The position numbers and the translations under genes were made by a program. Source: Comamonadaceae bacterium (lineage in GTDB: Bacteria; Pseudomonadota; Gammaproteobacteria; Burkholderiales; Burkholderiaceae_C). Taken from it: a stretch of 44,571 bases of DNA. This document shows, piece after piece, positions 7,066-35,312 of the stretch. Numbering within the stretch: the stretch's first letter is position 1; each line of letters starts with the position of its first letter. Where the stretch lies: positions 17,915-62,485 of the forward strand of contig JAJTGH010000071.1 of the NCBI GenBank assembly GCA_021299555.1, read 5' to 3'. The notes beneath the pieces were generated by a model. The model searched no databases, was not told the DNA's origin, and saw only the letters and a program-made list of their open reading frames with translations.

Positions 7066-7705
7066 ATGAACGACGATCAACTGCTGCGCTATTCACGCCA
7101 CATCCTGCTCGACGAGTTGGGCGTGGAGGGTCAGCAAAAGTTGCTTGATGCCCACGCATTGATCATCGGCGCCGGCGGGTTGGGTTCGCCGGTGGGGCTG
7201 TATCTGGGCAGCGCCGGGGTGGGCCGCATCACGTTGGTAGACCATGACCGCGTAGACGCCACCAATTTACAACGCCAGATCGCTCACCGGATCGATCGCA
7301 TCGGTCATTTCAAGCGTGGTGATCGACTGCACCGACAACTTTGCCACCCGCCAGATGATCAACCGCGCCTGCGTGCAGCACCGTGTGCCGCTGGTCTCAG
7401 GGGCAGCGATAGGCTTTGATGCGCAGGTCAGCGTCTACGACAGCCGCGATGGGGCCTGGCCCTGCTACGCCTGCCTGTTCGCACCCGACGCACCGCCTCA
7501 AGAGGTGCAGTGCGCCACCATGGGGGTGTTTGCGCCCCTGGTGGGCATCATCGGCAGCATGCAGGCGGCAGAGGCGATCAAACTGATCACCGGCGCCGGT
7601 CAATCACTGGCCGGCCGATTGCTGATGCTCGATGTCCGCACCCTGCAAACAAGCACCATCGCCATGGCCCGGGATCCGCACTGCCAGGTGTGCGGTGCGC
7701 GCTAG
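7066..7705 (+). pseudogene. moeB: MoeB/ThiF-family adenylyltransferase, internal out-of-frame deletion
   Basis: E1-like enzyme that adenylates the C-terminus of a ubiquitin-fold sulfur carrier (MoaD or ThiS). The N-terminal part is good: LLRYSRHILLDELG, the nucleotide loop GAGGLGSPVGLYL and the arginine-finger motif NLQRQ. After RIGHFK (about 7312) this frame loses homology. Homology resumes in another frame at about 7316 with VVIDCTDNFATR, then LVSGAAIGFDAQVSVY, zinc cysteines CYAC and the final CQVCG. Compared with family members of about 250 residues, some 35-40 codons are missing at the junction. Start to stop is 640 nt, not a multiple of three. As written no functional product can form. 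The start at 7066 follows family N-termini; a GTG at 7024 is also in frame. Confidence 0.88.
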
Positions 7706-7714
7706 AGCCGCCTC

Positions 7715-7730
7715 GGCAGGAACGCCTGCC
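7715..7730. terminator. Weak hairpin between convergent genes
   Basis: GGCAGG-AACG-CCTGCC forms a 6-bp stem with a 4-nt loop just after the moeB remnant and before the convergent response-regulator gene. There is no T-tract, so any terminator activity is doubtful. Confidence 0.25.
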
Positions 7731-7785
7731 ACGGGCTGAGTCTTCACTGGGTCCGTTGCGGGCTGCCGAAAACCGTGGTCAGTCC

Positions 7786-8427
7786 TCAGAAGGCTGTGGG
7801 CACCTGTGTGCGCAGGGGGACATAGTAGGTCAAATCGCTGTTGGAATTGAGACTCATCTTCTCCATCACACGGGTGCGGTATGTGCTGACGGTCTTGACG
7901 CTCAACGACAGTGCGCGGGCAATGTCGCCGGCCGTCTCTCCCTTGGCCAGTTTGAGAAAAACCTGAAACTCCCGCTCCGACAACTGCTCATGAGAAGCCA
8001 CATCGGCGGGCCGATTGAGTTGCTGGGCCAACAGCTCAGCCACACTGGGCGTGATGTAACGCTTGCCCAGCGCAATCACACGGATGGCCTTGACGATCTC
8101 GCCCGGATCGCACTCCTTGTTCAGGTAGCCGCTGGCGCCCTGACGAATCAGATTGACCGCGTAGTGCTCCTCCGGATAGCCACTGAGAATCAAGATGCCC
8201 ACATCCGGCGCCTTGGCGCGGATCATGGCCAGGGCATCTATGCCGCTTTGTCCTGGCATCGACAGATCCATCAACAACACGTCCAGTTCGGCCTTGCGCA
8301 CCAGATCGATCGCCTCCCGGCCGCTGCCGGCCTCACCCACAACCCGCAAATCCACCTGGTCTGAAAAGAACTGCCTGAGCCCCGACCGAACGATGGCATG
8401 GTCATCGACGATGCCAATTTTGATCAT
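7786..8427 (-). CDS. NarL/FixJ-type response regulator
   Basis: Two-component response regulator of 213 residues. The receiver domain (1-120) has acidic residues Asp8 and Asp9, the phosphoacceptor Asp54 in LLMDLSMPG and Lys104 in GYLNKE. The LuxR-type helix-turn-helix (about 145-205) contains LSEREFQVFLKLAKGETAGDIA and LSVKTVSTYRTRVMEKM. A strong ribosome site (AGGAGG) lies about 7 nt before the ATG. No sensor kinase is encoded nearby, so it is an orphan within this window. It is transcribed away from the AT-rich spacer 8428-8697. Confidence 0.93.
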   Translation of the reverse strand: MIKIGIVDDHAIVRSGLRQFFSDQVDLRVVGEAGSGREAIDLVRKAELDVLLMDLSMPGQSGIDALAMIRAKAPDVGILILSGYPEEHYAVNLIRQGASGYLNKECDPGEIVKAIRVIALGKRYITPSVAELLAQQLNRPADVASHEQLSEREFQVFLKLAKGETAGDIARALSLSVKTVSTYRTRVMEKMSLNSNSDLTYYVPLRTQVPTAF

Positions 8428-8697
8428 TTACCCCTCCTCCCTTTTTGTTCCAACGCCCGACAATTTCCACTCAAAACCGCTGAGTTAACGTTATCTGTCG
8501 ATTTTTTTAGCGATTGGCCATTATTGACAAATATCACCATTTCAGACACCTCATCCATAAACATAATCGTTGGGGCGAAACGGGCCTGCAGGCCATTGAA
8601 ACAGCGGCCAGTCACAGCCGCTTCCTACCCGCACTGGACACGCGGACCGACAGACGACTGGGCAACAGGCCGATGGGCACGGTGGGTCTGAACTTCG
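8428..8697. other. AT-rich intergenic region, probable divergent promoters
   Basis: The segment from about 8470 to 8570 is clearly richer in A+T than its surroundings. It holds the palindrome TAACGTTA at 8486-8493 and a consensus-like TTGACA at 8524-8529 on the plus strand, although no well-spaced -10 box follows within 17 bp (CATAAT at 8562-8567 is too far). The right part (8580-8697) has ordinary GC content and I see no gene in it. It separates the leftward response regulator from two rightward small genes and probably drives both. Confidence 0.45.
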
Positions 8698-9102
8698 ATG
8701 CTCGAGCCTGCACCCATGCTCCAACATCAAAGCCCCATGCTGCACCCGATCTACGCCGCCTTGCTGCAACGCCCCGACCTGCTGATCGGCCACGGTTTGG
8801 CCTATGCAGATTTGGTGACAGTCCAGGCACGGGCCATGCACAGTGCCCTGCAAGGGCGATTGCTGGCCGCCATGATGGCCCTGATTGGCGCAGTCGCTTT
8901 TGTGTTGTTTGCAGGTACGGCGCTGATGCTCGGCTTGATGCTCGATCGCTATCACCCGGTGTTGCTGCTCTTGCCCGGTCTGTGCCTGGCAACGGCCCTG
9001 CTGGGCGCTCTGATTGCCCGCCGGCCACTGCCCGAAGACACGTGGGCGCCATTGAAAACGCAGCTCGAAGACGATCTGCGTGCGCTGCGCTCGCTGGGCT
9101 GA
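8698..9102 (+). CDS. Small membrane protein, YqjE/phage-holin-family-like
   Basis: About 134 residues with two adjacent hydrophobic helices (roughly 55-75 and 80-103) and a soluble amphipathic N-terminus. This layout resembles YqjE-like proteins annotated as the phage holin family, which in proteobacteria sit beside ElaB/YqjD-like proteins and are not phage genes. In-frame ATGs occur at 8698, 8716 and 8737 and no ribosome site decides between them. The next gene starts 4 nt after its stop, so the two are probably co-transcribed. The assignment rests on topology and context only. Confidence 0.6.
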   Translation: MLEPAPMLQHQSPMLHPIYAALLQRPDLLIGHGLAYADLVTVQARAMHSALQGRLLAAMMALIGAVAFVLFAGTALMLGLMLDRYHPVLLLLPGLCLATALLGALIARRPLPEDTWAPLKTQLEDDLRALRSLG

Positions 9103-9106
9103 AACC

Positions 9107-9568
9107 ATGGCTGATCGCACCGCCTCGGAACATGCTTTGCGCAAGGCGAGCGAGCGGCTCGATCGTTCGCGGCTCGCATTGCTCGATCAGATGCGCCAGG
9201 TGCGCGGCTTCGAGCAGGGCGACTCAGCGCAAGATGCTCGGGCTCGCATGGGCCAAGGGCCATCACATCATCCGGTCTGGCAGATGCTGATGCAGGCCTG
9301 GCAGGACCACCCAGCCTACTGGGTGCTGCAGACGGCCCGACCGCTCTTTGGCGCGTACGCCAAGAGCCACCCCTGGCAATGGGTGGCCGTGTCCGCACTG
9401 GCAGGCGTCACCCTGGTGCTGCTTCGACCCTGGCGCAGGGTATCGGCCAGCGCACTGCTGACCACCGCGGTGCGCGCCCTACCCCTGTCGCGGCTGCTGG
9501 CCTTGTGGCGAGCGCAGATTCGCACTCAAGCGTCCCGCCAAACGGGTCAGACGCCAGGGGGCGGCTAA
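9107..9568 (+). CDS. Hypothetical protein with one membrane segment
   Basis: Protein of 153 residues that I cannot assign to a named family. The N-terminal 50 residues are charged and probably helical. A segment around 75-100 (WQMLMQAWQDHPAYWVLQTA) is followed by a hydrophobic helix WQWVAVSALAGVTLVLL and a basic C-terminus. The ATG at 9107 follows the preceding stop by 4 nt, so the pair forms a small operon. Similar two- and three-gene sets of small membrane proteins (YqjD/YqjE/YqjK) suggest an envelope or ribosome-tethering role, but that is inference. Confidence 0.6.
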   Translation: MADRTASEHALRKASERLDRSRLALLDQMRQVRGFEQGDSAQDARARMGQGPSHHPVWQMLMQAWQDHPAYWVLQTARPLFGAYAKSHPWQWVAVSALAGVTLVLLRPWRRVSASALLTTAVRALPLSRLLALWRAQIRTQASRQTGQTPGGG

Positions 9569-9594
9569 GCCCCACTGCCAGAGGCGGCGGCCGA

Positions 9595-10113
9595 TCACGG
9601 GGTCACTTTGCAGCTGCCGTGACGCTGGCGAAATTTGCGCGGCAGCTCGGGGCTGGGGTCGGCAAACAGGCCCAGCCTTTGTGCGCGCGCCAATTTCTGA
9701 TCGTCAGCGTAGGGGCCAGGGTCGCGGCCCACCCGGTAAGACCAAACCAGACCCTGCTGCACCAACAGGCGCGCCACATCCTGGCCCCGCCAGTAAACGA
9801 CGGCCAGCTCGCGCCCGTAGTCATCAAACCCTCGACGCAGCAAGCTCACGGCCTGACCCTGCACCCGCTCGCGCAGGGCATCGCGGGCCGCCGGGCCACC
9901 GCTCTGGCAGATCTCGGGCGCATCGATGCCCATCAGTCGAACTGAGACCGATGGTCCCTGGCCGGCCACTTGCACATAGATCGTGTCGCCATCGAGCACA
10001 TGGGTGACCACGCCCTGCCAGAGTTCCGAGGCGCGCGCCTGGCTGCAGCCGGTCAGCCAAGGGACCAGGCAAAGACTCAGGACCGTCGCACGAAAGACGC
10101 GCAACAGCCGCAC
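9595..10113 (-). CDS. Thermonuclease-family (SNase) lipoprotein
   Basis: Exported nuclease with a staphylococcal-nuclease fold. With a GTG start at 10113 the product is 172 residues: a hydrophobic signal segment ending in the lipobox LTGC (Cys23), then LDGDTIYV (metal-binding Asp), VRLMGIDAPE (catalytic Arg and acidic residue), YGRELAVVY and the C-terminal YADDQKLARAQRLGLF that is usual for the family. No in-frame ATG exists near the signal peptide; TTG at 10104 is an alternative. It follows the DUF429 gene by 40 bp on the same strand. The lipoprotein call depends on the start chosen. Confidence 0.82.
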   Translation of the reverse strand: MRLLRVFRATVLSLCLVPWLTGCSQARASELWQGVVTHVLDGDTIYVQVAGQGPSVSVRLMGIDAPEICQSGGPAARDALRERVQGQAVSLLRRGFDDYGRELAVVYWRGQDVARLLVQQGLVWSYRVGRDPGPYADDQKLARAQRLGLFADPSPELPRKFRQRHGSCKVTP

Positions 10114-10153
10114 CCCAAAAACATGGGGTCCGGCGCACCTCGTCTGGCCCCTG

Positions 10154-11026
10154 TTAGGCACTGACGATCCAACCTTCGAGCGCATCGATGTCGGACGGCA
10201 GTCCATAGTTGGGGTGGCCGCTGTCGTGCTGGGCTTGGGCCCAGGCCGCCTGCACCAGACACAACACCGCGTCGAGCCGGTCGCCACTGGCGTCATCGAC
10301 CAGCGCATCGCGCTGTGCATGACTGAGTTTGATCCGCAAGCCCAAGCGGGTCTGACCGTTTTCCAAGGCAGTGATCAGGTCTTTGCGGGCTATCAGGCGC
10401 TCCGGGGTCTGCTTGGCCTTGGCGTCGTTTTTATAGCTGCGCCGCTCGCCCCCAGGGCCCAACAGTTCGCGTGCAAGCAAACCGGGGTAGGCCTCGAGCC
10501 CCACCCGCAAGGGCAGGTGCGCGGTCTGCGGTGCCGTGCGCAGGGCCTGCTCCCGGCTGTGCAGGCCGGGCAGTTGTACGCCGGCCTCGATCAGGGGGGG
10601 CACGCCCGCGTGCAGCATGAAGGCCACCGGCGGGTTGATCCACTTCATGGAGGGGCTTGAGCCGGCCGGGCGGTCGGCCGCGCGGTGGGCAAACTTGCCA
10701 CCTGCGGGCCGGGCCGCGCAAAAAGCAGCAAAAGTCTGCGCAATCTGCGCCCGGCCCAGGCTGGCGTAGTGGCGCATGCAATCGAGCCAGTTGAGCGGCC
10801 AGCCCAGATGCTCGATCAACTCGCGCGGCAAGCCAAACGGGAAATCAAAACCACAGATCCAGGGCTGATCGCGCTGGAGCCACTGCGCATAGGCCTGCAG
10901 GGTCTGCGCCTCGTGCAGCCCATGCAACTGCACCCTGCCCCGCTCAAGGGCGCCGGTGGCAAAAACAATCGGCTTGCGCGGGCTCGGGCTGCTGGAGAAG
11001 TCGCAGCCGGCCAGCAGGGTGCTCAC
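10154..11026 (-). CDS. DUF429-family protein (predicted RNase H-like fold)
   Basis: Protein of 290 residues matching the DUF429 pattern: an N-terminal strand LLAGCDFSSSP carrying an Asp, the GFDFPFGLPRE motif around 58-68, EAYPGLLAREL around 182, and the C-terminal SGDRLDAVLCLVQAAWA. The spaced acidic residues support an RNase H-like nuclease fold, but no biochemical function is established. The proposed start is GTG at 11026 with only a weak ribosome site. It lies between a BLUF photoreceptor gene (22 bp upstream) and a secreted nuclease gene, all leftward. Confidence 0.8.
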   Translation of the reverse strand: MSTLLAGCDFSSSPSPRKPIVFATGALERGRVQLHGLHEAQTLQAYAQWLQRDQPWICGFDFPFGLPRELIEHLGWPLNWLDCMRHYASLGRAQIAQTFAAFCAARPAGGKFAHRAADRPAGSSPSMKWINPPVAFMLHAGVPPLIEAGVQLPGLHSREQALRTAPQTAHLPLRVGLEAYPGLLARELLGPGGERRSYKNDAKAKQTPERLIARKDLITALENGQTRLGLRIKLSHAQRDALVDDASGDRLDAVLCLVQAAWAQAQHDSGHPNYGLPSDIDALEGWIVSA

Positions 11027-11048
11027 GGCCAGGTGCTTCCCAAAAAAC

Positions 11049-11474
11049 TCAGGCCCGGCCCATGATGGAGGCGGTGACCATCAATTCCTGCAGCAAGGCA
11101 AGCGCCACGCTGCCGGAGATGGCGTAGGGGTCGAGCTCGGGACGCTCGCAATATTTGAGCACGATGGAGGCATTGAGCTTGGCCAGGTTGACGTGACCCA
11201 TGGTCCAGCCGCCAAAACTGCGTTCGCTGATTTCCTCGTAACTGAGCAGCACCACATCCTTGTGGCGAGGATCGCGCAGGATGTGCCCATACAGCTCATT
11301 GATCGGCGCACGGCCACCCTCTAGGGCTTGCAAAAACACGCCGCCACCGTGACACAAAATACCCGTGATGCCGCAGGCCGGATTGTGGCTGCGCGACTGC
11401 GCCAAGATGGCATCAGTGGCCTCCCCCGATTGCGGATCGGCAGCGCGGCTGGCATAAATCAAACGAACCAACAT
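11049..11474 (-). CDS. Stand-alone BLUF-domain blue-light photoreceptor
   Basis: Short protein of 141 residues consisting of a BLUF (FAD-binding) domain plus a C-terminal cap of about 45 residues. The diagnostic residues are present: Tyr7 (LIYASR), Asn31 (SHNPACGITG), Gln49 (FLQALEG), and the Trp90/Met92 pair (GGWTMG). Blue light rearranges the Tyr-Gln-flavin hydrogen bonds in this family; short BLUF proteins signal to partner proteins because they lack their own output domain. Upstream is folE (80 bp gap), downstream the DUF429 gene. No EAL, cyclase or MerR partner is encoded nearby, so its output is unknown. Confidence 0.92.
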   Translation of the reverse strand: MLVRLIYASRAADPQSGEATDAILAQSRSHNPACGITGILCHGGGVFLQALEGGRAPINELYGHILRDPRHKDVVLLSYEEISERSFGGWTMGHVNLAKLNASIVLKYCERPELDPYAISGSVALALLQELMVTASIMGRA

Positions 11475-11554
11475 GTGAATTTGCCCTGGATGTTGTCAAA
11501 CCATCGCCCGACCGACAACGCCGCATCCGAGCGACGTCGGCCGCGGCCTGTGCA

Positions 11555-12283
11555 TTAGTCGGATGTTTTCTTTGGAATCAAGGAAAGGAACTCGCGGCGC
11601 AGATTCGGATCTTTGAGAAAGACGCCACGCATGACGGAGTTGATCATCTTGCTGTCGAGGTCTTTGACGCCGCGCCAGCCCATGCAAAAGTGGGTCGCCT
11701 CCATGACGATGGCCAGACCATCAGGCTGCGTCTTTTCCTGAATCAGATCGGCCAGCTGAACCACCGCCTCTTCCTGAATCTGGGGCCGGCCCATCACCCA
11801 CTCGGCCAGGCGCGCGTATTTGGACAGGCCAATCACGTTGGTGCGCTCATTGGGCATGACCCCGATCCACACCTGCCCGATGACCGGACAAAAATGGTGC
11901 GAACATGCGCTGCGCACCCTGATTGGCCCAACTATCATCAGCTCGTTAAGGTGCTCGGCGTTGGGAAATTCGGTGATCGTCGGCGCCTTGACGTAGCGGC
12001 CTTTGAACACCTCCTGGATGTACATCTTGGCCACCCGACGCGCCGTGTCCTGCGTGTTGTGGTCGTTCTCGGTGTCGATCACCAGGCTCTCAAGCACACC
12101 CTGCATCTTGCCCGCGACCTCGTTGAGCAATTCCTCAAACTCGCCGGGCTCGATGAAGTCGGCGATGTTGTCATTGGCATTGAAGCGCCGACGCGCCGCA
12201 ACAATGCGCTCGCGGATCTTCACCGACAAAGGCACGCCTTGGTCGGTGGCGGTCACGGCGCTTGCGCTGGGATCTGATTTCAT
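11555..12283 (-). CDS. folE: GTP cyclohydrolase I
   Basis: Converts GTP to 7,8-dihydroneopterin triphosphate, the first step of tetrahydrofolate synthesis and other pterin-dependent routes. With the ATG at 12283 it has 242 residues. Zinc ligands Cys127 and His130 (SACSHHFCP) and Cys200 (THFCMGWRG) are all present, and the GLSKYARLAEW block is intact. Upstream in-frame starts at 12289 (ATG) and 12304 (TTG) exist; none has a clear ribosome site. The nudB product encoded 4.2 kb away would act on dihydroneopterin triphosphate, the product of this enzyme. Confidence 0.96.
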   Translation of the reverse strand: MKSDPSASAVTATDQGVPLSVKIRERIVAARRRFNANDNIADFIEPGEFEELLNEVAGKMQGVLESLVIDTENDHNTQDTARRVAKMYIQEVFKGRYVKAPTITEFPNAEHLNELMIVGPIRVRSACSHHFCPVIGQVWIGVMPNERTNVIGLSKYARLAEWVMGRPQIQEEAVVQLADLIQEKTQPDGLAIVMEATHFCMGWRGVKDLDSKMINSVMRGVFLKDPNLRREFLSLIPKKTSD

Positions 12284-12470: not shown

Positions 12471-14192
12471 CTACAAGCCTTTCTGCGCTGGCAGCAGAGC
12501 CTGCAGGTCGGCCAGGGTCGACGCTTCATGCAGGGGCTTGTCGGTGCGCAGTCGGCTGATGCGGGGAAAGCGCAAGGCCACACCGCTTTTGTGCCGCTTG
12601 CTCAGAGCAATGCCCTCAAACGCGAGTTCGAACACCAGGGTCGGACGCACACTGCGCACCGGGCCAAATTTATCGAGCAAGGTGCGCTTGATCTGCGCAT
12701 CGACCAGGCGCATCTCCTGATCGCTCAGGCCGCTGTAGGCTTTGGTGAAAGCCACCAGTTGCAGGGGTTGCTCGGCCAGAGGCAAGTCCGGGATGGATGG
12801 CAAAGGCTCCCGGCGAGCAATGGCGTCGATCACGGCTTGTGCTTGAGCGGCGTTTTCCACAGGCCGATTCCACACGGCAAATGTGTAGTCGCTGTAAAGC
12901 GAGGCACGCCGGCCATGTCCGGCCTGGGCATAGATCAGCACACCATCAACTACCATGGGGTCGCGCTTGAATTTGAGCCAAAGGCCCTCGCTTTTGGTGC
13001 GACCGCTGCCGTAGCCCGAGTCCAGCCGCTTGAGCATCAGGCCCTCGACGCTGCGTGCGTCGCGGCGCAGTTGCTCGACCGCCGCCCAATCGGCAGGGTG
13101 CAGGGCGGGCGATAAGGGCATTGCTTGGCCATGCAGCAATTGCTCCAGGCGCTCGCGCCTTTGGGCCTGGGGCAAGGCACGGATGTCCTGACCGCCTTGT
13201 TCAAGAAGATCGTAGGCCACAAAGGTCGCAGGAACACGCGCCAACAGACTGGCCGGCAGACGCTTGCGACCCAGGCGCTGCTGCAGCACAGCAAACGGTG
13301 CGGCAGCGCCCGCCTGCCAGGCCAGGAGCTCGCCGTCGAGCACCGTGCCCTCGGGCAGGTCGGCGGCCAAAGGCAAAACGTCCGCAAAAGACTCGGTGAT
13401 CAGTTCCTGCCCGCGCGACCATAAAAAAACGCCTGCAGCGCGCTTGACCAGTTGAGCGCGGATGCCGTCGTACTTCCATTCGATCAGCCATTGGGCCGGC
13501 TCGCCCAGGCTTTCCAGCGGCTCGTCGGCAGCCAGCGGATGAGCCAGAAAAAAGGGATAGGGCCGCCCATCTTGACGGCCTGCCTGCGCACCGCTGGCCT
13601 GCGGTGCAATCAAGGCCAGGTAGGACTGCGCCGTGGGCACAGCACGGCTGTCGGTATAGCCCATCATGCGTTCGGCCACGCAAGCGGGCTCCAGGCCCGC
13701 GTGAACCGCCAAGGCCCGCTGCACCAGCAGCCGGCTCACTCCCACCCGAAATCCACCACCAGCGAGTTTGACCCAAAGCAGGCGCCCCAGGCCATCGAGT
13801 TGCAGCCACTGCGCGCGCACGCGCGCACGCACCTGCGGCTCAGCCAAGCCGCGCAGAGGCAGCAGGCGCCCTTGCACCCATTGCGCCAAGCTCGCATCGT
13901 CTTGGCCGCAGGGCGCTACGGGCAGTACGTGCGCAATCGTTTCGGCCAAATCCCCGACCGCCTGGTAGCTGGCTTCAAACAGCCACTCTGGCAGATCGGC
14001 CATCTCGCAGGCCAGCGCCCTGAGCAGCGCCGGGCGCACCAGCTGCCTGGGCTTGCCGCCGGCCAAGAAATAAACCGCCCAAGCCGCGTCGGCCGCACTG
14101 GCCTGCGCCAAGTAGCCCTGCAAGGCGGCGATCTTGGCCGCCGTCGAGGTGCTGGCATCGAGCTCGCTATAGAGGGCTGCAAATTGCTTCAT
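12471..14192 (-). CDS. ATP-dependent DNA ligase (LigB/LigC-like, repair type)
   Basis: Monomeric ATP-dependent DNA ligase of 573 residues. An N-terminal DNA-binding helical domain (1-200) precedes the adenylation domain with the nucleotidyl-lysine Lys240 in EWKYDGIRAQ, then VLDGELLAW, EGLMLKR and WLKFKRD (motifs III-V), and a C-terminal OB-fold domain. The ATG at 14192 overlaps the stop of the upstream exonuclease gene (TGATG), implying translational coupling. In many proteobacteria this ligase is paired with an MBL-fold exonuclease and an Lhr helicase; here only the exonuclease partner is adjacent, and it is broken. It supplements rather than replaces NAD-dependent LigA. Confidence 0.93.
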   Translation of the reverse strand: MKQFAALYSELDASTSTAAKIAALQGYLAQASAADAAWAVYFLAGGKPRQLVRPALLRALACEMADLPEWLFEASYQAVGDLAETIAHVLPVAPCGQDDASLAQWVQGRLLPLRGLAEPQVRARVRAQWLQLDGLGRLLWVKLAGGGFRVGVSRLLVQRALAVHAGLEPACVAERMMGYTDSRAVPTAQSYLALIAPQASGAQAGRQDGRPYPFFLAHPLAADEPLESLGEPAQWLIEWKYDGIRAQLVKRAAGVFLWSRGQELITESFADVLPLAADLPEGTVLDGELLAWQAGAAAPFAVLQQRLGRKRLPASLLARVPATFVAYDLLEQGGQDIRALPQAQRRERLEQLLHGQAMPLSPALHPADWAAVEQLRRDARSVEGLMLKRLDSGYGSGRTKSEGLWLKFKRDPMVVDGVLIYAQAGHGRRASLYSDYTFAVWNRPVENAAQAQAVIDAIARREPLPSIPDLPLAEQPLQLVAFTKAYSGLSDQEMRLVDAQIKRTLLDKFGPVRSVRPTLVFELAFEGIALSKRHKSGVALRFPRISRLRTDKPLHEASTLADLQALLPAQKGL

Positions 14193-15186
14193 CACGCCTG
14201 CTGAGCCAGCTCGGCCTCATCGACCGGCTCGCCACCGTATTGCGTTTCAAAGGCTTGGGCCTGCAGGCCACGCTCCTGGAGGTGGCGCACCATCACCTCC
14301 ACACTGCCGTGGGTGACGATCACGCGCTGCGCGCCGGTGGCCGCAATGGCCGCGTGAAGGCCGGGCCAGTCTGCGTGATCGCTCAGGGCAAAGCCACGGT
14401 CATAGGCGGCACGCCGGCGCGCGCCGCGCAACTGCATCCAGCCGCTGGCAAAGGCGGTGGATGCATCGCCGAGTCGGCGCAGCCAAGACGGCGTCAAGGC
14501 GTTGGGCGGACACAGCAGCAAGGCGCCTGAAAGGCCGTCGCGCGCAGCAGCGGCCACACCAGACCAGGCCGACCAGGGCTCGGTGGCTGGCAGCTGCACG
14601 CCCGCATCGCGATACACCTGATTGATCGCGTCCACGGCCGGGTGAACAAGAATGGGGGCAATGCGCTCATCGAGCCCGCTGAGCAATTGGCTGCCCACCA
14701 GGCGTTCATGTCGGCAAACAGCGCCTCGTCGCTGCGCCAGCGGTAGATCGGCAGGCCGAAGGTCGACTCGGTGATGAACACATCGCAGCGCACCGGCTCA
14801 AACGCAGTGCAGGTACGGTCTGCAGCGACCTTGTAGTCACCGCTGGCCACCCAAATTCGGCCCGCGTGCTCCAGCCGCACCTGCGCCGAGCCCAGCACAT
14901 GGCCGGCCGGATGAAGAGAGAGCCTCACGCCATGGTGCACGATGGCCTGACCGTAGGCCAGGCATTGCAGTGACACCTGGCCCAGCCGCGCCCGCAACAG
15001 CCCCTCGCAGTCCTGGGCGGCCAGGTAGTGCCCGTGGCCTCGCCGAGCGTGGTCGGCGTGGGCGTGGGTGATCACGGCGCGATCCACGGGCCGCCAGGGA
15101 TCGATGTAAAAGTTGCCCGGCGGGCAATAGAGGCCTTCGGGCCGCTGCACGATGAGATCATCAGGATGAAACATCGCCGCGCCCAT
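14192..15186 (-). pseudogene. MBL-fold DNA/RNA exonuclease (ligase-associated), internal out-of-frame deletion
   Basis: Metallo-beta-lactamase/beta-CASP-type exonuclease that accompanies ATP-dependent ligases. The N-terminal half has the metal site THAHADHARRG, HPAGHVLGSAQ, the SGDYK loop and TESTFGLPIY. At NAWWA (about 14700) the frame breaks; homology resumes in another frame as QLLSGLDERIAPILVHPAVDAIN and runs to GGEPVDEAELAQQA. The normally intervening stretch of about 20 residues, with the ALGKAQR-type segment, is absent. Start to stop is 995 nt, not a multiple of three. The ATG follows the clsB stop directly (TGAATG) and the last codons overlap the ligase start, so the operon layout is otherwise intact. 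Confidence 0.87.
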
Positions 15187-17018: not shown

Positions 17019-18833
17019 TCAGGCCGGCTGCGTGTTGCGCAGCCGGATATGCAACTCGCGCAACTGTTTCTCGTCGACCGGGCTGGGCGCCTGCGTGAGC
17101 AGACACTGGGCACGCTGGGTCTTGGGAAAGGCGATCACATCACGGATCGACTCGGCACCGGTCATGAGCGTGACCAGACGATCGAGACCAAAGGCCAGGC
17201 CGCCATGGGGCGGCGCACCGTACTGCAGGGCATCGAGCAGGAAGCCGAATTTGAGCTGCGCCTCCTCTGGCCCAATCTTGAGCGCAGTGAACACCTTGCT
17301 TTGCACATCGGCACGATGAATACGCACCGAGCCGCCACCGAGCTCCCAGCCGTTGAGCACCATGTCATAGGCCTTGGCGATGCAGCGCCCGGGGTCACTG
17401 TCCATAAAGTCCTCGTGACCGTCTTTGGGCGCGGTGAACGGATGGTGCACCGCACTCCAGCGCTGCCCCTCTTCATCGAATTCGAACATCGGAAAGTCGA
17501 CCACCCAAAGCGGCCGCCAGCCGGCCTCAAAAAGACCGGTCTTCTTGCCAAAATCACTGTGGCCGACTTTCAGGCGCAGGGCGCCGATGCTGTCGTTGAC
17601 GATCTTGGCCTTGTCGGCGCCAAAAAAGATCAGGTCGCCGTTTTGCGCGCCCGTGCGCGCGAGGATCTGGGCGATGGCCGCCTCGTGGATGTTTTTGACG
17701 ATGGGGCTTTGCAGACCCTCGCGGCCCTTGGTCACGTCGTTGACCTTGATCCATGCCAAGCCCTTGGCGCCGTATATCTTTACGAATTCGGTGTAGCCGT
17801 CGATCTCGCTGCGGCTGATTTCGGCACCGCCGGGCACGCGCAGCGCGACCACCCGACCGCCGGGCATGTTGGCCGCGCCACTGAAGACCTTGAAGTCCAC
17901 ATCCCTCATCACCTCGGTCAGCTCGGTGAGCTCGAGTTTGACGCGCAAATCAGGCTTGTCCGAGCCAAACCGGTGCATGGCTTGGCCATACGGCATGACC
18001 GGAAAGGCACCGAGGTCCACGCCCATGGTGGAATGGAAAATCTTGCCGATCATGCCTTCGAACAGGTTGCGAATGTCCTGTTCGGCCATGAAGGAGGTTT
18101 CGATGTCGATCTGAGTGAATTCAGGCTGACGGTCGGCACGCAGGTCTTCGTCGCGAAAGCACTTGGTGATCTGGTAATAGCGATCGAAACCGGCGACCAT
18201 GAGCAGCTGTTTGAAAAGCTGGGGCGACTGCGGCAGTGCAAAAAACTGGCCGTCGTGCACCCGGCTGGGCACCAGGTAGTCGCGCGCGCCCTCGGGGGTG
18301 CTCTTGGTGAGCATGGGCGTTTCAATGTCCACAAAGCCATGCTCGTCGAGAAACTTGCGAACGCCCATGGCCACGCGGTAGCGCAACATCAGGTTGTTTT
18401 GCATGTACGGACGGCGCAGATCGAGCACGCGGTGCGTCAGGCGGGTGGTCTCCGACAGGTTGTCGTCATCGAGCTGAAACGGCGGAGTGACCGAAGGATT
18501 GAGCACGAGCAACTCGTGGCAGAGCACCTCGATCTTGCCGCTCTTGAGGTTGTCGTTGTCAGTGCCCTGCGGACGCTTGCGCACCAGGCCTTTGATTTGC
18601 ACACAAAACTCGTTGCGCAAGCCCTCTGCGGTCTTGAACATGTCCTGACGATCTGGGTCGCAGACCACCTGCACATAGCCCTCGCGGTCGCGCAGATCGA
18701 CAAAGATCACGCCCCCGTGGTCGCGCCGGCGGTTGACCCAACCGCACAAACTGACCGTTTGACCGAGAAGCTCTTCGGTCACAAGACCGCAGTAATGAGA
18801 CCTCATCTGTGAGGCGCTGGAGACCTGGGACAT
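17019..18833 (-). CDS. aspS: Aspartyl-tRNA synthetase (probably non-discriminating Asp/Asn)
   Basis: Class IIb synthetase of 604 residues, full bacterial length with the GAD insert. The N-terminal OB-fold reads [23 protein letters not shown]. Motif 2 is [21 protein letters not shown] and motif 3 is [14 protein letters not shown]; the flipping loop lies in [14 protein letters not shown]. The ATG at 18833 is preferred over TTG 18845 or GTG 18839. It lies in the conserved order fmdB-DUF502-aspS-nudB. Betaproteobacteria often use a non-discriminating enzyme with GatCAB; that cannot be proven here. Confidence 0.96.
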
Positions 18834-19843: not shown

Positions 19844-19878
19844 GGTGAGGGTTTTTGGGTAAGACCGGACAACCCTCA

Positions 19879-19884
19879 ATTATA
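19879..19884 (-). promoter_or_regulatory. -10 element upstream of the fmdB-aspS run
   Basis: Reads TATAAT on the minus strand, 36 bp before the fmdB ATG. No good -35 hexamer is found at 16-18 bp spacing, so only the -10 box is supported. Confidence 0.45.
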
Positions 19885-19979
19885 GGCGTGCCCATCCAGT
19901 CAGAGGCAGCACCCGCAAGCGCTTGAAGCCCGAGCCGGGCACCCCCACTGCCCAGCGCCAGCCCAGCCGGCCGCCGCGA

Positions 19980-21455
19980 TCAGCGCCCGGCCGGATCGCG
20001 CGCTGCGTGACCCAGGGCGCTGGCCATCGATTGACCCTGGTTGGGAATCAACGTCGGTGCGATGGATCCCAACAACATGCCGACGATGGATGCACCCAAA
20101 CCCAGCAAATTGGCTGGCACCAGGGTTTCCGGTGCCAGAAAGTTGAACACCAGCCAGGTGCCCACGCCCAACACCACGGAGAACAAAGCCCCTTGCGTGT
20201 TGGCCCGACGCCAGAACGCACCAGCCACCAAAGGCACAAAGGCTCCGGTCAGGGTGACGTTGTAGGCGTTTTGGACCATCTCGTACATGGTGCTGGTGCT
20301 GTTGAGGGCAAACAGCAAGGCACAGGCAGTGAAAGTGACCAAGATGACGCGCAGAAGCAACAGGAACTGCCGGTCGCTCATGCGGGGCACGAAAGGCTTG
20401 AGCACGTTTTCGGTGAAGGTCGCAGTGGGGGCCAACAAAGCCCCGCTGGCAGTCGACAAAATGGCCGAGAGCAAAGCACCAAAGAACAAAATTTGCGCCC
20501 ACATGGGCATCTTGCCCAGCACCAGGTCGGGCAGGATGCGTTGTATGGCGCGGGCGTCCTCCGACTCGAACAAAGCCTTGAGTTCAGGGTGGGCGATCAG
20601 GGCGGCATAAGCGATGTACAAGGGAATGAAGGCGATCACGAAGTACATCAGGCCGCCGATGAGGGTGCCGCGCACCGCCGTCTTTTCATCCTTGGCGCTG
20701 GTCATGCGTTGAAACACATCTTGCTGTGGAATGGATCCAAAGGCGAAGGCAAAGAATGCGCCTGCCATGGCCCACCACGCTGCGGCATCCATGTCGGCCG
20801 GGAACATATCGAACTTGCCGTCGGCCGCCGCTTGTGCCACCACCTTGTCAAAACCGCCGGCATTGCCGCCCACCAGCATGGCCACCAAAATCAAGCCCAC
20901 CACGATCACCACCGTCTGAAACAAATCGGTGAAAGCCACCGACCACATGCCGCCAAACACCGTGTAGACCAGCACCACGGCCGCGCCCATCATGATGGCG
21001 TAGTTCAGATCAATGGCTCCTGACGACAAGACATGGATCACCAACCCCAGTGCCGTCAACTGGGCCGAAGTCCAACCCAGGTAAGACAAAACAATGGCCA
21101 TGCTGGTCAATACCTCGACGGATTTTCCGTAACGCACCTTGTAAAAATCCCCGATGGTCAGCAGATTCAGCCGGTAAAACAGCTTGGCAAACAGCAGCGC
21201 TGCCAGCACCAGGCAGACCGTCGCGCCGAATGGGTCGCCCGGAATGCCATTGAGACCATCCTTGGCAAAGGTGGCAGACACCGAGAGCACCGTCTCGGCC
21301 CCGAACCACGTGGCAAACACGGTGGCAACGTTCATGTACAGCGGCAAACTGCGACCGGCGACCAGGTAATCCTTGGCGCCGTGGACGCGGCGCGATGCCA
21401 ACAGACCGATGGCAATGGTGACCGCCAGGTAGGCAATAACAAAAGTCAGCAGCAC
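19980..21455 (-). CDS. Sodium/solute symporter (SSS family)
   Basis: Integral membrane secondary transporter of 491 residues with about 13 predicted helices, in the SSS family (PutP, PanF, SglT relatives). Typical segments are ASRRVHGAKDYLVAGRSLP near the N-terminus, ATWFGAETVLSVSATFAKDG, and the SILSTASGALLAP motif that forms the sodium site in this family. The substrate cannot be assigned. GTG at 21455 is used as start because AAGGAG lies about 8 nt upstream. It begins 24 bp after the ubiB remnant on the same strand and may be read from that operon. Confidence 0.9.
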   Translation of the reverse strand: MLLTFVIAYLAVTIAIGLLASRRVHGAKDYLVAGRSLPLYMNVATVFATWFGAETVLSVSATFAKDGLNGIPGDPFGATVCLVLAALLFAKLFYRLNLLTIGDFYKVRYGKSVEVLTSMAIVLSYLGWTSAQLTALGLVIHVLSSGAIDLNYAIMMGAAVVLVYTVFGGMWSVAFTDLFQTVVIVVGLILVAMLVGGNAGGFDKVVAQAAADGKFDMFPADMDAAAWWAMAGAFFAFAFGSIPQQDVFQRMTSAKDEKTAVRGTLIGGLMYFVIAFIPLYIAYAALIAHPELKALFESEDARAIQRILPDLVLGKMPMWAQILFFGALLSAILSTASGALLAPTATFTENVLKPFVPRMSDRQFLLLLRVILVTFTACALLFALNSTSTMYEMVQNAYNVTLTGAFVPLVAGAFWRRANTQGALFSVVLGVGTWLVFNFLAPETLVPANLLGLGASIVGMLLGSIAPTLIPNQGQSMASALGHAARDPAGR

Positions 21456-21479
21456 AGGCTTCTCCTTTGATTCGTAGTC

Positions 21480-22984
21480 TCAGTAAAAAACGCGCAGGTG
21501 CATGCCCACCTGCAAAACAAGCAAGGAAACCACAAAGCCCAGCCCAGCGTAAATCAGGGTTTGCAGCAGTCTGTTGGTTCGCCTTTGCTCAACCCGCAAC
21601 TGCTCGATCTGCCGCGTGTCGCTCGATTGCGACCGCCGCAGGTAATCGTGCAGCAAGCGCGGCAACTGCGGCAGCAGCTTGGCGTAAAGAGGGGCCTGGT
21701 CCTTGAGTTGCTCCCACAGCTTTTTGGGGCCGATCTGATCGATCATCCACTTTTCCAAAAAGGGCTTGGCCGTGCTCCACAGATCCAGGTCCGGGTCGAG
21801 GTCGCGTCCTAGCCCCTCAATATTGAGCAAGGTTTTCTGCAGCAGCACCAGCTGGGGCTGAATTTCGACATGAAAGCGGCGCGAGGTCTGAAACAGGCGC
21901 ATGAGCACCATACCGAGCGAGATTTCTTTCAAGGGGCGGTCGAAATAGGGCTCGCACACCGCGCGGATGGCGGCCTCGAGCGCATCGATCCGTGTGTTCG
22001 CAGGCACCCAGCCGGACTCCAAGTGCAGTTCGGCCACGCGCTTGTAGTCCCTCCTGAAAAACGCCGTGAAATTTTGCGCCAGGTATTCCTTGTCGACCTC
22101 CGTGAGTGTGCCCACGATGCCAAAGTCCAAAGAAATATAACGCCCAAAGGTCTCTGGCTCGAGGCTGACCTGAATATTGCCTGGGTGCATGTCGGCATGG
22201 AAAAAACCATCGCGAAACACCTGGGTAAAAAAAATCGTCACGCCGTCACGGGCGAGCTTCTTGATGTCCACCCCCGCCTCCCTGAGGCGCTGCACCTGAT
22301 TGATGGGAACGCCCTTCATGCGCTGCATCACCAGCACATCGGTCGTGCAGTAATCCCAGACCATTTCAGGAATGAGAACCAGATCCATGCCCTGCATGTT
22401 GCGACGCAACTGAGCCGCATTGGAGGCCTCGCGCAACAGGTCGAGCTCGTCGTGCAGGTAGGTGTCAAATTCGGCAACCACCTCGCGGGGCTTGAGCCGC
22501 TTGCCGTCCGACGATAACCGCTCAACCCAGCCGGCCATCATGTGCATCAGGGCCAGGTCTTTCTCGATGATCTTGAGCATGCCCGGGCCTGCGCAATCGA
22601 GGCACTGGCCACCGGTTCGCGCTCAAAGCTGGCAAATATCTTATCGATGGGCCGACCAAACGATTTTTCAATGATGCCCACCGCCAGGTCCGGGTCAAAG
22701 GCAGGCACGCGGTCCTGCAGGCGAGCCAGTTGATCGGCCAGGTCGGCCGGCAGCAAGTCGCGCCGGGTGGAGAGCACTTGCCCAAACTTGACGAAGATCG
22801 GACCCAGACTCTCCAGGGCCAGACGCAGCCGCTCGCCGCGCGGAGCACGCAGATCACGCCCAATGGAAACGATGCGGGTCAATAAGCGCAAGCCTGGCCG
22901 CTCGAAACTGGCCAGCACCAGCTCGTCCAAACCATAGCGCAACACCGTCCAAACGATGAACAGGCCGCGCAGCAGGCGGCTCAT
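21480..22984 (-). pseudogene. ubiB: UbiB ubiquinone-biosynthesis kinase-like protein, internal out-of-frame deletion
   Basis: ABC1/ADCK-family ATPase needed for aerobic ubiquinone synthesis. The first half runs from [21 protein letters not shown] through [17 protein letters not shown] to [13 protein letters not shown] (the Ala-rich loop). At about 22585 homology continues in a different frame with [25 protein letters not shown] (catalytic loop), ISLDFGIVG and two C-terminal membrane helices. The usual 20-23 residues between, including the AVKVLRPG strand with the ATP-site lysine, are gone. Start to stop is 1505 nt, not a multiple of three. The start overlaps the ubiJ stop by 4 nt (ATGA). Confidence 0.9.
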
Positions 22985-26004: not shown

Positions 26005-29000
26005 TCACACCAGCACCCGCTCGATACCCCCGCGATTGGCCTGCTCAACATAAGCGGGCAGCCAATCCGGGCCCAAGATCTGTTGGGCCATTTCGACCAC
26101 GATGTAGTCGGCCTCCAGCAGTCCGTTGTTCAAATCATTGCCGTAGCGAGACAGGCCCTGCAGACAGCTGGGGCAACTGGTGAGGATCTTGACCGGACCT
26201 TGATTTTCCAACATGCCGCTCGAACGCAAGGCCACCTCCCCCTTGCGCAGCTCTTCTTCCTTGCGAAAGCGCACCTGGGTGGAAATGTCAGGCCGGGTCA
26301 CGCCCAGGGTGCCGGACTCGCCGCAGCAGCGATCGCTTTTGATCACGTTGGGGCCGACCAGGGCCTTGACCGTCTTCATGGGGTCCTGAAGCTTCATGGG
26401 GCTGTGGCATGGATCATGGTAGAGGTAGCCCTGATTTGCGGCCAAGGTCACGCCCTTTTCCAGCAGGTACTCGTGGATGTCCACGATGCGGCAGCCCGGG
26501 AAGATCTTGTCGAACTCATAGCTCTGCAGCTGGTCGTAGCAGGTGCCGCAGCTGACCACCACCGTCTTGATGTCCAGGTAATTGAGTGTGTTGGCGACAC
26601 GGTGAAACAGCACCCGGTTGTCGGTGATGATTTTTTCGGCCTTGTCGAATTGTCCGCTGCCCTTTTGCGGGTAGCCACAGCACAAGTAGCCCGGCGGCAG
26701 CACGGTCTGAACCCCGGCGTGCCAGAGCATGGCCTGGGTGGCCAACCCCACCTGCGAGAACAGGCGTTCGGAGCCGCAACCGGGGAAATAAAACACCGCC
26801 TCGGTTTCGCTGCTGGTGGTTTGGGGGTTGCGAATGATCGGGACGTAGTCTTTGTCTTCAATGTCGAGCAGGGCGCGCGCGGTCTTTTTGGGCAAGCCGC
26901 CAGGCATTTTTTTATTGATGAAATGAATCACCTGCTGCTTGATCGGTGCCGCGCCCACACTGGCCGGCGGTTTGGCCGTTTGCTTGCGGGCCACGGTGCG
27001 CAGCAGGTCATTGGCCAAGCGCTGGACCTTGAAGCCCACGCCAACCATGGCGCTTCTCATGAGCTTGATGGTCTCAGGCTGGGTCGCATTGAGAAAAAAC
27101 ATGGCCGCCGCATTGCCCGGCCGGAACGACTTTTGACCCATTTTGCGCAGCAGGTTGCGCATGTTCATCGACACTTCACCAAAGTCGATATTCACCGGGC
27201 AGGGAGACAGGCACTTGTGGCAGACCGTGCAATGGTCGGCGACGTCCTCAAATTCCTGCCAGTGCTTGATCGAGATACCGCGGCGCGTTTGCTCCTCGTA
27301 CAAGAAGGCCTCAACCAGCAAAGACGTGGCCAGAATCTTGTTACGCGGTGAATACAGCAAATTGGCCCGCGGCACGTGGGTGGAACACACGGGCTTGCAC
27401 TTTCCGCAGCGCAGACAGTCCTTGACCGAATCGGCAATGGCGCCGATGTCCGACTGCTGCATGATCAAAGATTCGTGGCCCATTAAACCAAAGCTGGGCG
27501 TGTAGGCGTTGGTCAGGTCAGCCGGCAAAGACGGGTCGCGCAGCAGCTTGCCCTTGTTGAAGCGGCCCTCGGGATCGATGCGCTTTTTGTAGTCGGCAAA
27601 CGGCTGCAGCTCGTCCGCAGTCAGAAAGTTGAGCTTGGTGATGCCTATGCCATGCTCGCCCGAAATCACGCCGTCGAGCGATCGGGCCAGATCCATGATC
27701 CGTGCCACCGCTTCATGGGCGGTCTGCAGCATGTCGTAGTCGTCGCTGTTGACCGGCAAGTTGGTGTGCACATTGCCGTCGCCCGCATGCATGTGCAGCG
27801 CGGCCCAGACCCGGCCCTTGAGCACGCGCTGATGGATCTCCAGGCAATGCTGCAAGATGGGCTGCAAAACAGCACCCGAGAAAATCGCCTGCAAGGGCGC
27901 TCGCAAATCGCTCTTCCAACTGGCGCGCAAAGAATGGTCTTGCAATTGCGGGAACAGGCGGGCCACATCGGCCAGCCACCCCTGCCACTGATCACGAACC
28001 TGCGCAATCAGCGCCAAGGCCTGCGCCACGCGGTCGTCGAGCAACTCGGCCGATGGCAATTCGCCGGCGTCGTCGGACTTGCCCAGGGGCAAATTGCCGC
28101 GGCTGAAAAACGCCTCCAACTCGTCACACAGTCGGATCTTGTTCCTCAGGGACAGCTCGATATTGATGCGCTCGATGCCGTCGGTGTACTCGGCCATGCG
28201 TGGCAGCGGTATGACCACGTCTTCATTGATCTTGAATGCGTTGGTGTGACGCGAAATGGCAGCGGTGCGTTTGCGGTCGAGCCAGAATTTTTTGCGTGCT
28301 TCGGCGCTGATGGCCACAAAACCCTCGCCGCTGCGCGAGTTGGCGATGCGCACCACCTCAGAGGTTGCGCGGGCCACGGCGTCGGCGTCGTCACCGGCGA
28401 TGTCGCCAATGAGCACCATCTTGGGCAGGCCACCGCGCTTGGACTTCGTGGTGTAGCCCACTGCCTTGAGGTAGCGGTCGTCCAGGTGCTCCAAACCGGC
28501 CAGCAACACAGCTGCCGGTCCGCCCGGCTGCGCGCCCGATGCACTGCTTTTTTGCAGCGCAAACATGTAGTCTTTGATTTCAACAATGCTGGGCACCGCT
28601 GGATGCCCGGCAAACCGGATAGGAACTTGTCCGTGACGTCCTTGCCCAAGCCCTCTTTTCGAAACGACTTACCGGCAATATCCAGCCTCTCGGTGCGCAG
28701 CAGCGTCTTGCCATCGACTGCCAGGTGGCGCAGCTCGAAGCTGACCATCTCGGCGTCATGGATCTTGCCCAAGTTATGGCCCAGGCGCACCACCTCCAGC
28801 CAAGTGGCATCGGGTGTGACCATGCGCCAGGAGGCCAGATTGTCGAGTGCCGTGCCCCAGAGCACCGCCTTTTTGCCCCCCGCGTTCATGGCAATATTGC
28901 CCCCGATGCACGATGCCTCGGCCGAGGTCGGATCCACCGCAAATACAAAGCCCGCACGATCGGCCGCATCGGCCACGCGCTGGGTCACCACACCCGCTTC

Positions 29001-29807
29001 GGTCCAGATCGTGGGCACGGGATGCGCCAGGCCCGGCAATTGAATATGCTCGACCTCGCCCATGGCCTCGAGCTTTTCGGTGTTGATGACGGCCGACTTC
29101 CAGCTCAGGGGAATCGCCCCACCGGTATAACCAGTGCCACCGCCACGCGGCACGATGGTCAGCCCCAAATCGATGCAGGCTTGAACCAATCCCGCCATCT
29201 CAGCCTCGGTGTCAGGCGTAAGCACCACAAAAGGGTATTCAACCCGCCAGTCGGTGGCATCGGTCACATGGGAAACGCGCGAGAGACCGTCAAACTTGAT
29301 GTTGTCTTTGGCCGTGACTTTGCGCAGTCTGCGCTCGGCCTGATTGCGCAACTGGGCCACCTGCTCAAAGCCCTGGGCAAAGCGGCGCACGGCAGCGCTG
29401 GCCAGATCGAGCAGCTGGCCGACAATGCGGTCGCGCGGCACATCGAGCTCGGGCGTGCGGCGCTTTTGAACCTCGCCCAGGCGATGTTCCAAAGCCTCCA
29501 CCAGCAGACGGCGTCGGCCCGGGTTGTCCAGCAAATCGTCCTGCAAATAAGGATTGCGCTGTACCACCCAGATATCGCCCAGCACCTCATAGAGCATGCG
29601 GGCCGAACGACCCGTGCGGCGCTCATCGCGCAGGCGGTTGAGCAAGTCCCAGGCCGACTCGCCCAAGACCCGGATCACCACCTCGCGGTCAGAAAACGAG
29701 GTGTAGTTGTAAGGAATCTCACGGATTCGGGAGCGCTCGCCACCCTCGGTCAGACCGACGGGGTCGGCCATCGCATGCAAGAGCTGGGGCGAAGCAGGGG
29801 CGTTCAT
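26005..29807 (-). pseudogene. Large FAD-binding/Fe-S oxidoreductase (D-lactate dehydrogenase-like), internal out-of-frame deletion
   Basis: Normally a single protein of about 1300 residues. The N-terminal frame (29807 to about 28600) has a DUF3683-like domain ([21 protein letters not shown]) and an FAD-binding type 4 domain ([36 protein letters not shown]). It ends in homology at [10 protein letters not shown]. The second frame (from about 28596) begins [14 protein letters not shown] and carries the FAD-oxidase C domain (HAGDGNVH, SGEHGIG), two Fe-S ligand sets (CLRCGKCKPVC, CTVCHKCLSPC) and two CCG domains (CCGYP, CCGESG). About 35 residues are missing between the halves. Start to stop is 3803 nt, not a multiple of three. 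The role of intact homologues is probably respiratory oxidation of a 2-hydroxyacid. Confidence 0.88.
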
Positions 29808-30232: not shown

Positions 30233-30344
30233 CAAAAACCCGGGCTGCATGCACGCCATCAGCGCCCAAAATCCACCGAGCCACAAGCCACCGCCTTCGC
30301 GACAGTTTGGTGCATACTCGGGTAAACCCGGGTGCCTACCTGAG

Positions 30345-30366
30345 GATGTCAATTTAAATTGACATC
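30345..30366. promoter_or_regulatory. Perfect 22-bp palindrome upstream of hemA (candidate operator)
   Basis: The half-site GATGTCAATTT is followed immediately by its exact reverse complement. The centre lies about 59.5 bp before the predicted hemA transcription start, the usual position for an upstream-binding activator. A second inverted repeat, CGGGT-AA-ACCCG, is at 30319-30330. The cognate regulator is unknown. Confidence 0.7.
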
Positions 30367-30380
30367 TGGCGCCGACACAT

Positions 30381-30408
30381 TTGCCTAAAGTCGCGCCGAA
30401 TTTATAAT
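30381..30408 (+). promoter_or_regulatory. hemA promoter predicting a leaderless mRNA
   Basis: TTGCCT (30381-30386) and a perfect TATAAT (30403-30408) are 16 bp apart. The -10 box ends 6 nt before the hemA ATG, so transcription would start at or within 1-2 nt of the A of the start codon. No Shine-Dalgarno sequence precedes the ATG. Confidence 0.65.
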
Positions 30409-30414
30409 CACGCC

Positions 30415-31695: not shown

Positions 31696-31794
31696 CGCCG
31701 AAGGCAGCGCCCCCCGGCCCACGCCTCAAGCCGGCAACGGGCCTTGCCAGTCGGGTCGAACGACCCGCCCCGTTCGAACCAACGCGCAGCCAAA

Positions 31795-33746: not shown

Positions 33747-33777
33747 TAATAGGAACCGGACTTTTGGAGGGCAGACC

Positions 33778-34095
33778 ATGAACGACACCCAGCAACGCAT
33801 CGACCAGATCGTCAAATCCAGCGACGTGGTCCTTTTCATGAAGGGCACGGCCCAATTTCCCATGTGCGGCTTTTCAGGCCGTGCGATTCAAATCCTCAAG
33901 GCCTGCGGCGTGGCCAAACCGGCCACGGTCAACGTGCTTGAAGACGAGGCCGTGCGCCAGGGCATCAAGCAATACAGCAACTGGCCCACCATCCCGCAGC
34001 TCTATATCAAGGGCGAGTTCGTCGGCGGTTCGGACATCATGATGGAGATGTACGAAAACGGCGAATTGCAGCAAATGCTGGGCAGTAACAACTGA
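33778..34095 (+). CDS. grxD: Monothiol glutaredoxin (Grx4 type)
   Basis: CGFS-type glutaredoxin of 105 residues that binds a [2Fe-2S] cluster with glutathione at dimer interfaces and acts in Fe-S trafficking. The active-site Cys30 lies in [10 protein letters not shown], and [19 protein letters not shown] supplies the glutathione site. A strong ribosome site, GGAGGG, lies about 6 nt before the ATG. It follows prmC by 31 bp and ends the operon before a bidirectional terminator. Confidence 0.96.
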
Positions 34096-34117
34096 TCGAA
34101 CGCGGTTGACGAAAAGC

Positions 34118-34152
34118 AAAAACCGCGCGGCGGCCAGCCCCGCGGTTTTTTC
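34118..34152. terminator. Bidirectional intrinsic terminator
   Basis: AAAAACCGCG (34118-34127) pairs with CGCGGTTTTT (34141-34150), giving a GC stem preceded by A and followed by T tracts. It lies between the converging grxD operon and the leftward small secreted-protein gene, and can serve both strands. Confidence 0.88.
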
Positions 34153-34179
34153 ACGCCCACGTCGCGCTCTTATCCAGAT

Positions 34180-34455
34180 CTACTGCGTGTAACCGGTGCA
34201 GGCGCCGGCATTGGGGCGGCCCTTGCATTCGCGCTTGAGCCGGGCAGCGCGCTCAGAGGCCGTTTCGCCCGAGCCACCGGGCAGCACCTTGGGCTGAGCC
34301 ACGCGAGGCTGAGCGGCCTTCGTGGTTTTTTTCTGCGTCGCGGCGGGCTTGGCATCCGGACCCTGGGGCTCGGTGGCACTGGCTTGCTGTGCCTGCACCG
34401 GAAGGTGCACGATGGCGCCCAAAAACAAAACTGCCCATGAAAGGTAGCCACGCAT
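34180..34455 (-). CDS. Small secreted hypothetical protein
   Basis: Protein of 91 residues: a signal peptide (about 1-22, ending HLPVQA-Q), a flexible Ala/Lys/Pro/Thr-rich middle, and a conserved-looking end SERAARLKRECKGRPNAGACTGYT with two cysteines that could pair. I do not recognise a named family. It is the last leftward gene of the coaE-zapD-yacG block, 9 bp after yacG. Confidence 0.65.
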   Translation of the reverse strand: MRGYLSWAVLFLGAIVHLPVQAQQASATEPQGPDAKPAATQKKTTKAAQPRVAQPKVLPGGSGETASERAARLKRECKGRPNAGACTGYTQ

Positions 34456-34464
34456 GCGGACCCA

Positions 34465-34680
34465 CTATTGCAGTTTGGGATCGCCAAAGCCCGAATCGTC
34501 AGGCGGGGCCTCGGCGGGAACGCGAAACTGTTCGCTGGCCCAGGCGCCAAAATCCATGTTTTTGCAGCGAACGCAGCAAAACGGCCGCGCCGGGTTGCCA
34601 GGGCCATACACGCTGTCCCCGCCACAGGCGGGGCAGGCGACGATGCGGTCAGGGCATGTGAAATCCGCGGACATGGTCAT
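34465..34680 (-). CDS. yacG: DNA gyrase inhibitor YacG (zinc-binding)
   Basis: Protein of 71 residues with the YacG zinc site formed by Cys16, Cys19, Cys35 and Cys39 (CPACG and CCVRCKNMDFGAWA). YacG binds GyrB and inhibits gyrase in E. coli. Position after coaE and zapD matches the usual pilD-coaE-zapD-yacG order. ATG at 34680 or 34674 are both possible. The C-terminal tail rich in Pro, Asp and Gly is normal. Confidence 0.93.
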   Translation of the reverse strand: MTMSADFTCPDRIVACPACGGDSVYGPGNPARPFCCVRCKNMDFGAWASEQFRVPAEAPPDDSGFGDPKLQ

Positions 34681-34725
34681 GCATGGGAAATCAGAGATCG
34701 CTGACAGGCGCCCCGGCCGTCGGGC

Positions 34726-35312
34726 TCAGGAGCACAGGGTGACTTCCAATTGTGCATCTTCCTGGGAAGATTGCATGCGCTGACCGTCAATGATGGTCAT
34801 CAAACGCACGGATACCACCAAGCGGTTACCACTGATCTCGGGAAACAGGCCCAACTGCGGGTCGATGCGAAGCCTCATGAGTTGAAAAGTGCGCCCCTGA
34901 GGCAGGTTCTGCTGAAAGTGGCCGCCGGCGCACAGCACCTTTTGCGGCACACCCGAGTCGCGCAACAGCTTGAGCAGCATGCCCACCGATTCGGCCAGCG
35001 GCAGCAAGCCCTCGATCCAGCGCTGCAAGTCTGCTCGCCGCTGATCCACATCGCGGTGGCGCCAGGCATGGTAGGCGGGCAGGTCAAATTCGCAAGTACC
35101 CCCCGGAATCGCAGCACGGCTGCGCAGACTCATGAGCCAGTCTTGAGTTCGGCACGCGCCCCCACCTCGATGATCTCGAATACGGTGGTGATGGCAAAGT
35201 GGTGATCGGTGGCGCTGCTGCGCCCCATCAACTCGCCCAACCTGAAAAACAAATGCTCCAGACGCAAATAGGTCCGGACGCGTTCGTTAAAGGGGTACTC
35301 GTACAGGATCAC
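34726..35312 (-). pseudogene. zapD: Cell-division protein ZapD, internal out-of-frame deletion
   Basis: ZapD (DUF1342) bundles FtsZ filaments. The N-terminal frame starts with GTG at 35312 (VILYEYPFNERVRTYLRLEHLF) and continues to EIIEVGARAELKTGS, then stops at once. Homology resumes in another frame at 35133 with MSLRSRAAIPGGTCEFDLPAYHAW and runs to SGNRLVVSVRLMTIIDG. The helical middle, about 55 residues in family members, is missing. Start to stop is 587 nt, not a multiple of three. The second part begins with an ATG and could be translated on its own, but without the N-terminal FtsZ-binding fold. Confidence 0.87.

Follow-up and report, generated by a model that had tools for sequence, protein, structure and literature searches.

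Five conserved genes in one stretch of a Comamonadaceae bacterium draft genome each lack an internal block of DNA, and we consider it highly probable (about 96%) that these breaks are assembly errors in a metagenome-derived draft, in which contigs were ordered correctly and the distances between them misjudged. The stretch (44,571 nucleotides, hereafter the window) comprises bases 17915-62485 of contig 136 of the draft, G000, which has 217 contigs totalling 2.97 Mb and is estimated to be 82.85% complete and 4.15% contaminated. Its fragmentation and the titles of its relatives' records suggest that it was built from metagenome data: by UbiB, its closest named relatives belong to the Comamonadaceae (Limnohabitans, Polaromonas, Rhodoferax and others), and the titles of many of these records mark them as metagenome-assembled. 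Window coordinates are contig 136 positions minus 17914, with the junctions taken from alignments. The broken genes are as follows.

7066..7705, plus strand: moeB (molybdopterin-synthase adenylyltransferase), split between two frames and lacking 110 nt between 7314 and 7315
14192..15186, minus strand: ligase-associated DNA damage response exonuclease, split between two frames and lacking 58 nt between 14685 and 14686
21480..22984, minus strand: ubiB, split between two frames and lacking 52 nt between 22587 and 22588
26005..29807, minus strand: FAD/Fe-S oxidoreductase, split between two frames and lacking about 106 nt between 28598 and 28599 (G012 alignment only)
34726..35312, minus strand: zapD, split between two frames and lacking 169 nt between 35139 and 35140 (G012 alignment only)

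Alignment to close relatives places each loss at a single abrupt point, out of frame. The best two references were G012 (contig 5, 71 kb) and G033 (contig 3, 39 kb), with both of which contig 136 is collinear over long stretches. Losses in moeB, the exonuclease and ubiB were measured against both references, and those in the FAD/Fe-S oxidoreductase and zapD against G012 alone because the G033 contig does not reach them. At the oxidoreductase the net loss is 100 nt rather than about 106 nt, due to an unrelated 6-nt difference nearby. In a three-way alignment of 29.5 kb, where a private deletion in G000 means that it differs where the other two agree, private deletions of at least 15 nt numbered three in G000, none in G012 and none in G033; two stretches were left out because of large insertions, so the surroundings of ubiB are covered only partly.

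Two blocks of contig 136 are missing at the corresponding place in both G012 and G033. About 8 kb at contig positions ~3564-11867, outside the window, resembles G012 contig 13 in part; another block of about 1.6-1.8 kb, at window ~19845-21630 between ubiB and the next gene, covers an ORF (19980-21455) that by eye encodes a solute-symporter-like protein. The window holds no tRNA genes.

An initial annotation of this DNA had described the five genes as split between two frames with an internal block loss, and this is confirmed both by the alignments to G012 and G033 and by NCBIfam. In four genes the two halves match the same family (MoeB, the TIGR04122 ligase-associated exonuclease, UbiB and ZapD), and in the FAD/Fe-S oxidoreductase the halves are complementary, with domains DUF3683, FAD_binding_4, FAD-oxidase_C, Fer4_8, CCG and DUF3400. 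The start-to-stop lengths (640, 995, 1505, 3803 and 587 nt) leave remainders of 1, 2, 2, 2 and 2 on division by three, as had been claimed, and the junctions, placed at about 7312, 14700, 22585, 28598 and 35135, were found at 7314, 14685, 22587, 28598 and 35139. Defining the missing bases against relatives, as had been proposed, yielded the 110, 58, 52, ~106 and 169 nt listed above. These correspond to about 17-56 residues per gene, against the 20-60 that had been claimed. The further claim that other genes in the window show no frameshift holds for credible changes of at least 20 nt; the one change of that size elsewhere is a doubtful 28-nt case at window 11026 (C136:28940), at the poorly conserved end of an ORF.

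Relatives mostly carry these genes whole. An open frame of at least 487 aa for ubiB is present in 55 of the 56 relatives with a match, the remaining one being cut by a contig end; the G000 frame is 380 aa. zapD lies in one piece in 37 of 38 relatives with a match, and in 38 of 40 relatives a single moeB match spans 244 or more residues, with a stop listed inside eight of these matches. The FAD/Fe-S oxidoreductase has a single open frame of at least 1275 aa in 24 of 40 relatives, is shorter in nine (six of which start at contig base 1-3) and has no close match in seven. Among the 22 relatives with any match to the exonuclease it is whole in 15, partial in one and weak in six. G000 shows just two halves for each of the five genes. 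The exception for zapD is G042, itself only 68% complete as a draft, where the gene is split between two frames at G042:C13:4696-5444. None of the relatives examined shares the G000 deletions; among the 86 other genomes of the genus, searched with the ubiB stretch, there is no near-identical genome for direct comparison, and the nearest reaches 79% identity across the 2 kb compared.

Both halves of each gene are open and conserved, which would fit programmed frameshifting or translational bypass yielding full proteins from the split frames. However, residues are missing from the DNA at the site itself, beyond a mere shift of frame, and relatives encode these residues in one frame. For zapD, the only gene tested in this way, the draft does not contain the missing stretch at any other place; the top remaining hit is 27 nt long (E 0.0086). 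We give recoding virtually no chance as an explanation, and recoding that gives the family's full-length protein is refuted.

A different reading takes the deletions as real: the lineage would have lost short stretches of many genes by an unusual process, for example through damage repaired by end joining, and what remains would be recent pseudogenes. The initial annotation had offered such a process as an alternative and had suggested looking for direct repeats at the edges. At the five junctions we found neither microhomology nor direct repeats, just 0-2 shared letters (zapD was read by eye). End joining could produce such edges, and the five genes include a member of a ligase-associated exonuclease family. 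Yet conservation persists on both sides of the breaks, with protein identities to G012 of 90 and 76% for moeB, 80 and 76% for the exonuclease, 84 and 88% for ubiB, 85 and 90% for the oxidoreductase and 85 and 79% for zapD. There is no sign in the five genes that constraint was lost beyond the break, since downstream identity is still 76-90% and the frames are open. Moreover, none of the five genes has another copy in the draft, and almost all matching relatives carry ubiB and zapD. Real deletions would also leave unexplained both the N runs whose flanks overlap and the 74-nt duplication, which resembles a contig overlap, described below. We therefore regard this reading as very improbable. Support for an unusual deletion process in the lineage was not found, and it is just as hard to credit a living lineage in which an active, microhomology-free process deletes blocks of 25-230 nt from many conserved genes.

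If the breaks are instead assembly errors, one possible cause within that artefact, rather than an alternative to it, is that the missing stretches were hard to sequence, so that contigs ended there and the assembler closed up. Taking the G012 sequence, the exonuclease stretch exceeds 97% of equally long stretches in folding stability, and drop-out may have contributed at this gene for that reason. In contrast, the G+C content of all five stretches (percentiles 0.16-0.73) and the folding of the other four (percentiles 0.29-0.62) are ordinary. We reject unusual composition or folding as a property of the missing stretches, except perhaps for that in the exonuclease, and consider drop-out an unlikely cause of the five breaks.

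Similar losses occur on other contigs of the draft. We compared G012 proteins with 45 sampled G000 contigs (whole or part, out of 217) amounting to 540 kb, in which 187 genes and 176,619 nt were aligned. Of the 23 frame changes found, 16 lose a net 20 nt or more and two gain a net 20 nt or more. Once these were checked at the nucleotide level, fourteen losses on seven contigs were kept as credible: the five in the window, one elsewhere on contig 136 and eight on six other contigs. The two remaining candidates were C139:5851, dropped as merely a 1-nt difference, and the 28-nt case at C136:28940, set aside as doubtful. The credible losses outside the window are as follows.

C136:8719, on contig 136 outside the window, 124 nt
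C15:12379, on another contig, 77 nt
C17:5218, on another contig, 82 nt
C17:8221, on another contig, 50 nt
C17:15295, on another contig, 25 nt
C121 near 6770, on another contig, about 227 nt
C124:10560, on another contig, 52 nt
C135:16802, on another contig, 140 nt, with one flank alone aligned as DNA
C139 near 4020, on another contig, 98 nt

Such breaks are rare in the controls. The reverse comparison gave a single break of at least 20 nt in G012 over 170,082 nt, and a control of 79 relatives' loci plus G033 gave two over 679,881 nt; contig 136, counted in the same way as the latter, has six in 42,567 nt, the doubtful 28-nt case included. The two control breaks lie in L056 and L082 (140 and 103 nt), which are metagenome-assembled by title and may share the fault.

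The draft also carries other marks of faulty joins. Nine runs of N (4, 4, 14, 22, 24, 29, 51, 56 and 98 nt) occur in 540 kb of G000, compared with three in 1.53 Mb of the controls. Exact overlaps between the flanking ends were found at four of the nine runs (42, 8, 6 and 2 nt), so that Ns despite overlapping flanks, one mark of a faulty join, are present in G000; at the other five the flank overlap is 0-2 nt and carries little meaning. A second mark, a contig overlap doubled without N, is present once (C3:3503). The clearest cases, and the run beside the window, are as follows.

C8:5754 (L134): NNNN between flanks sharing an exact 42-nt repeat
C3:3503 (L129): exact 74-nt tandem duplication without N, breaking the frame of a conserved gene
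Contig 136, 17886-17914: run of 29 N within an ABC transporter-like gene, ending directly before window base 1

At the 29-N run no sequence is missing, because the two flanks share 2 nt at their ends and follow directly on each other in G012. Short tandem duplications are not unusually frequent in G000, at 5.6 per Mb compared with 12.1 for G012 and 8.3 for the 79 loci, and among those in G000 the 74-nt unit alone stands out. From C10:7744 onward (L136), the right flank of the 56-N run has no G012 alignment and the left flank is 93% identical over 88 nt; this run is possibly a wrong join.

Assembly joins were the cause preferred by the initial annotation, and the evidence supports that preference: the losses are abrupt and private to G000, the relatives' genes are whole, the same fault appears on other contigs and is rare in the controls, and both the N overlaps and the 74-nt duplication fit. 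Directly observed are the missing stretches, the lack of such deletions in the relatives' genes, the N runs between overlapping ends and the duplication, and the errors are spread over contigs of one assembly yet rare in others. The fault is general in the G000 draft and hence most likely not a biological feature.

We envisage that neighbouring contigs would have been placed in the correct order with the distance between them wrongly estimated. Where that distance was estimated at zero or less, the ends would have been abutted without N and the intervening 52-169 nt lost; where contig ends overlapped, the overlap would have been retained twice, with or without a few Ns. Misjudged joins of this kind would account for the losses without N, the N runs over overlapping ends and the overlap kept twice. 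Two points count against this: losses without N are more numerous than N gaps, which would require gap sizes to have been systematically underestimated, and short tandem duplications as a whole are no commoner in G000 than in the controls. We infer the role of a scaffolder, as the analysis rests on the assembled sequence; a wrong path in local assembly would leave similar marks.

Comparable faults are known. Chen et al. 2020 (PMC7111523) describe local errors of metagenome assemblies that lack read support, which they suspect to feature prominently in assemblies made with IDBA-UD, and report Ns put between overlapping contig ends in IDBA-UD and CLC assemblies. The G000 breaks resemble the errors in that account: the consensus does not reflect the organism, protein-coding genes are left incomplete and Ns stand over overlapping ends. 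They differ in how they are recognized: Chen et al. 2020 (PMC7111523) define an error by missing read support, whereas G000 was judged from sequence alone.

The finding matters solely as a warning about this draft. Because conserved genes are cut at joins without N, it is unsuited for calling pseudogenes or gene loss. Drafts of this sort can be detected without reads, by adjacent open frames of one family with residues missing between them, together with N gaps whose flanks overlap.
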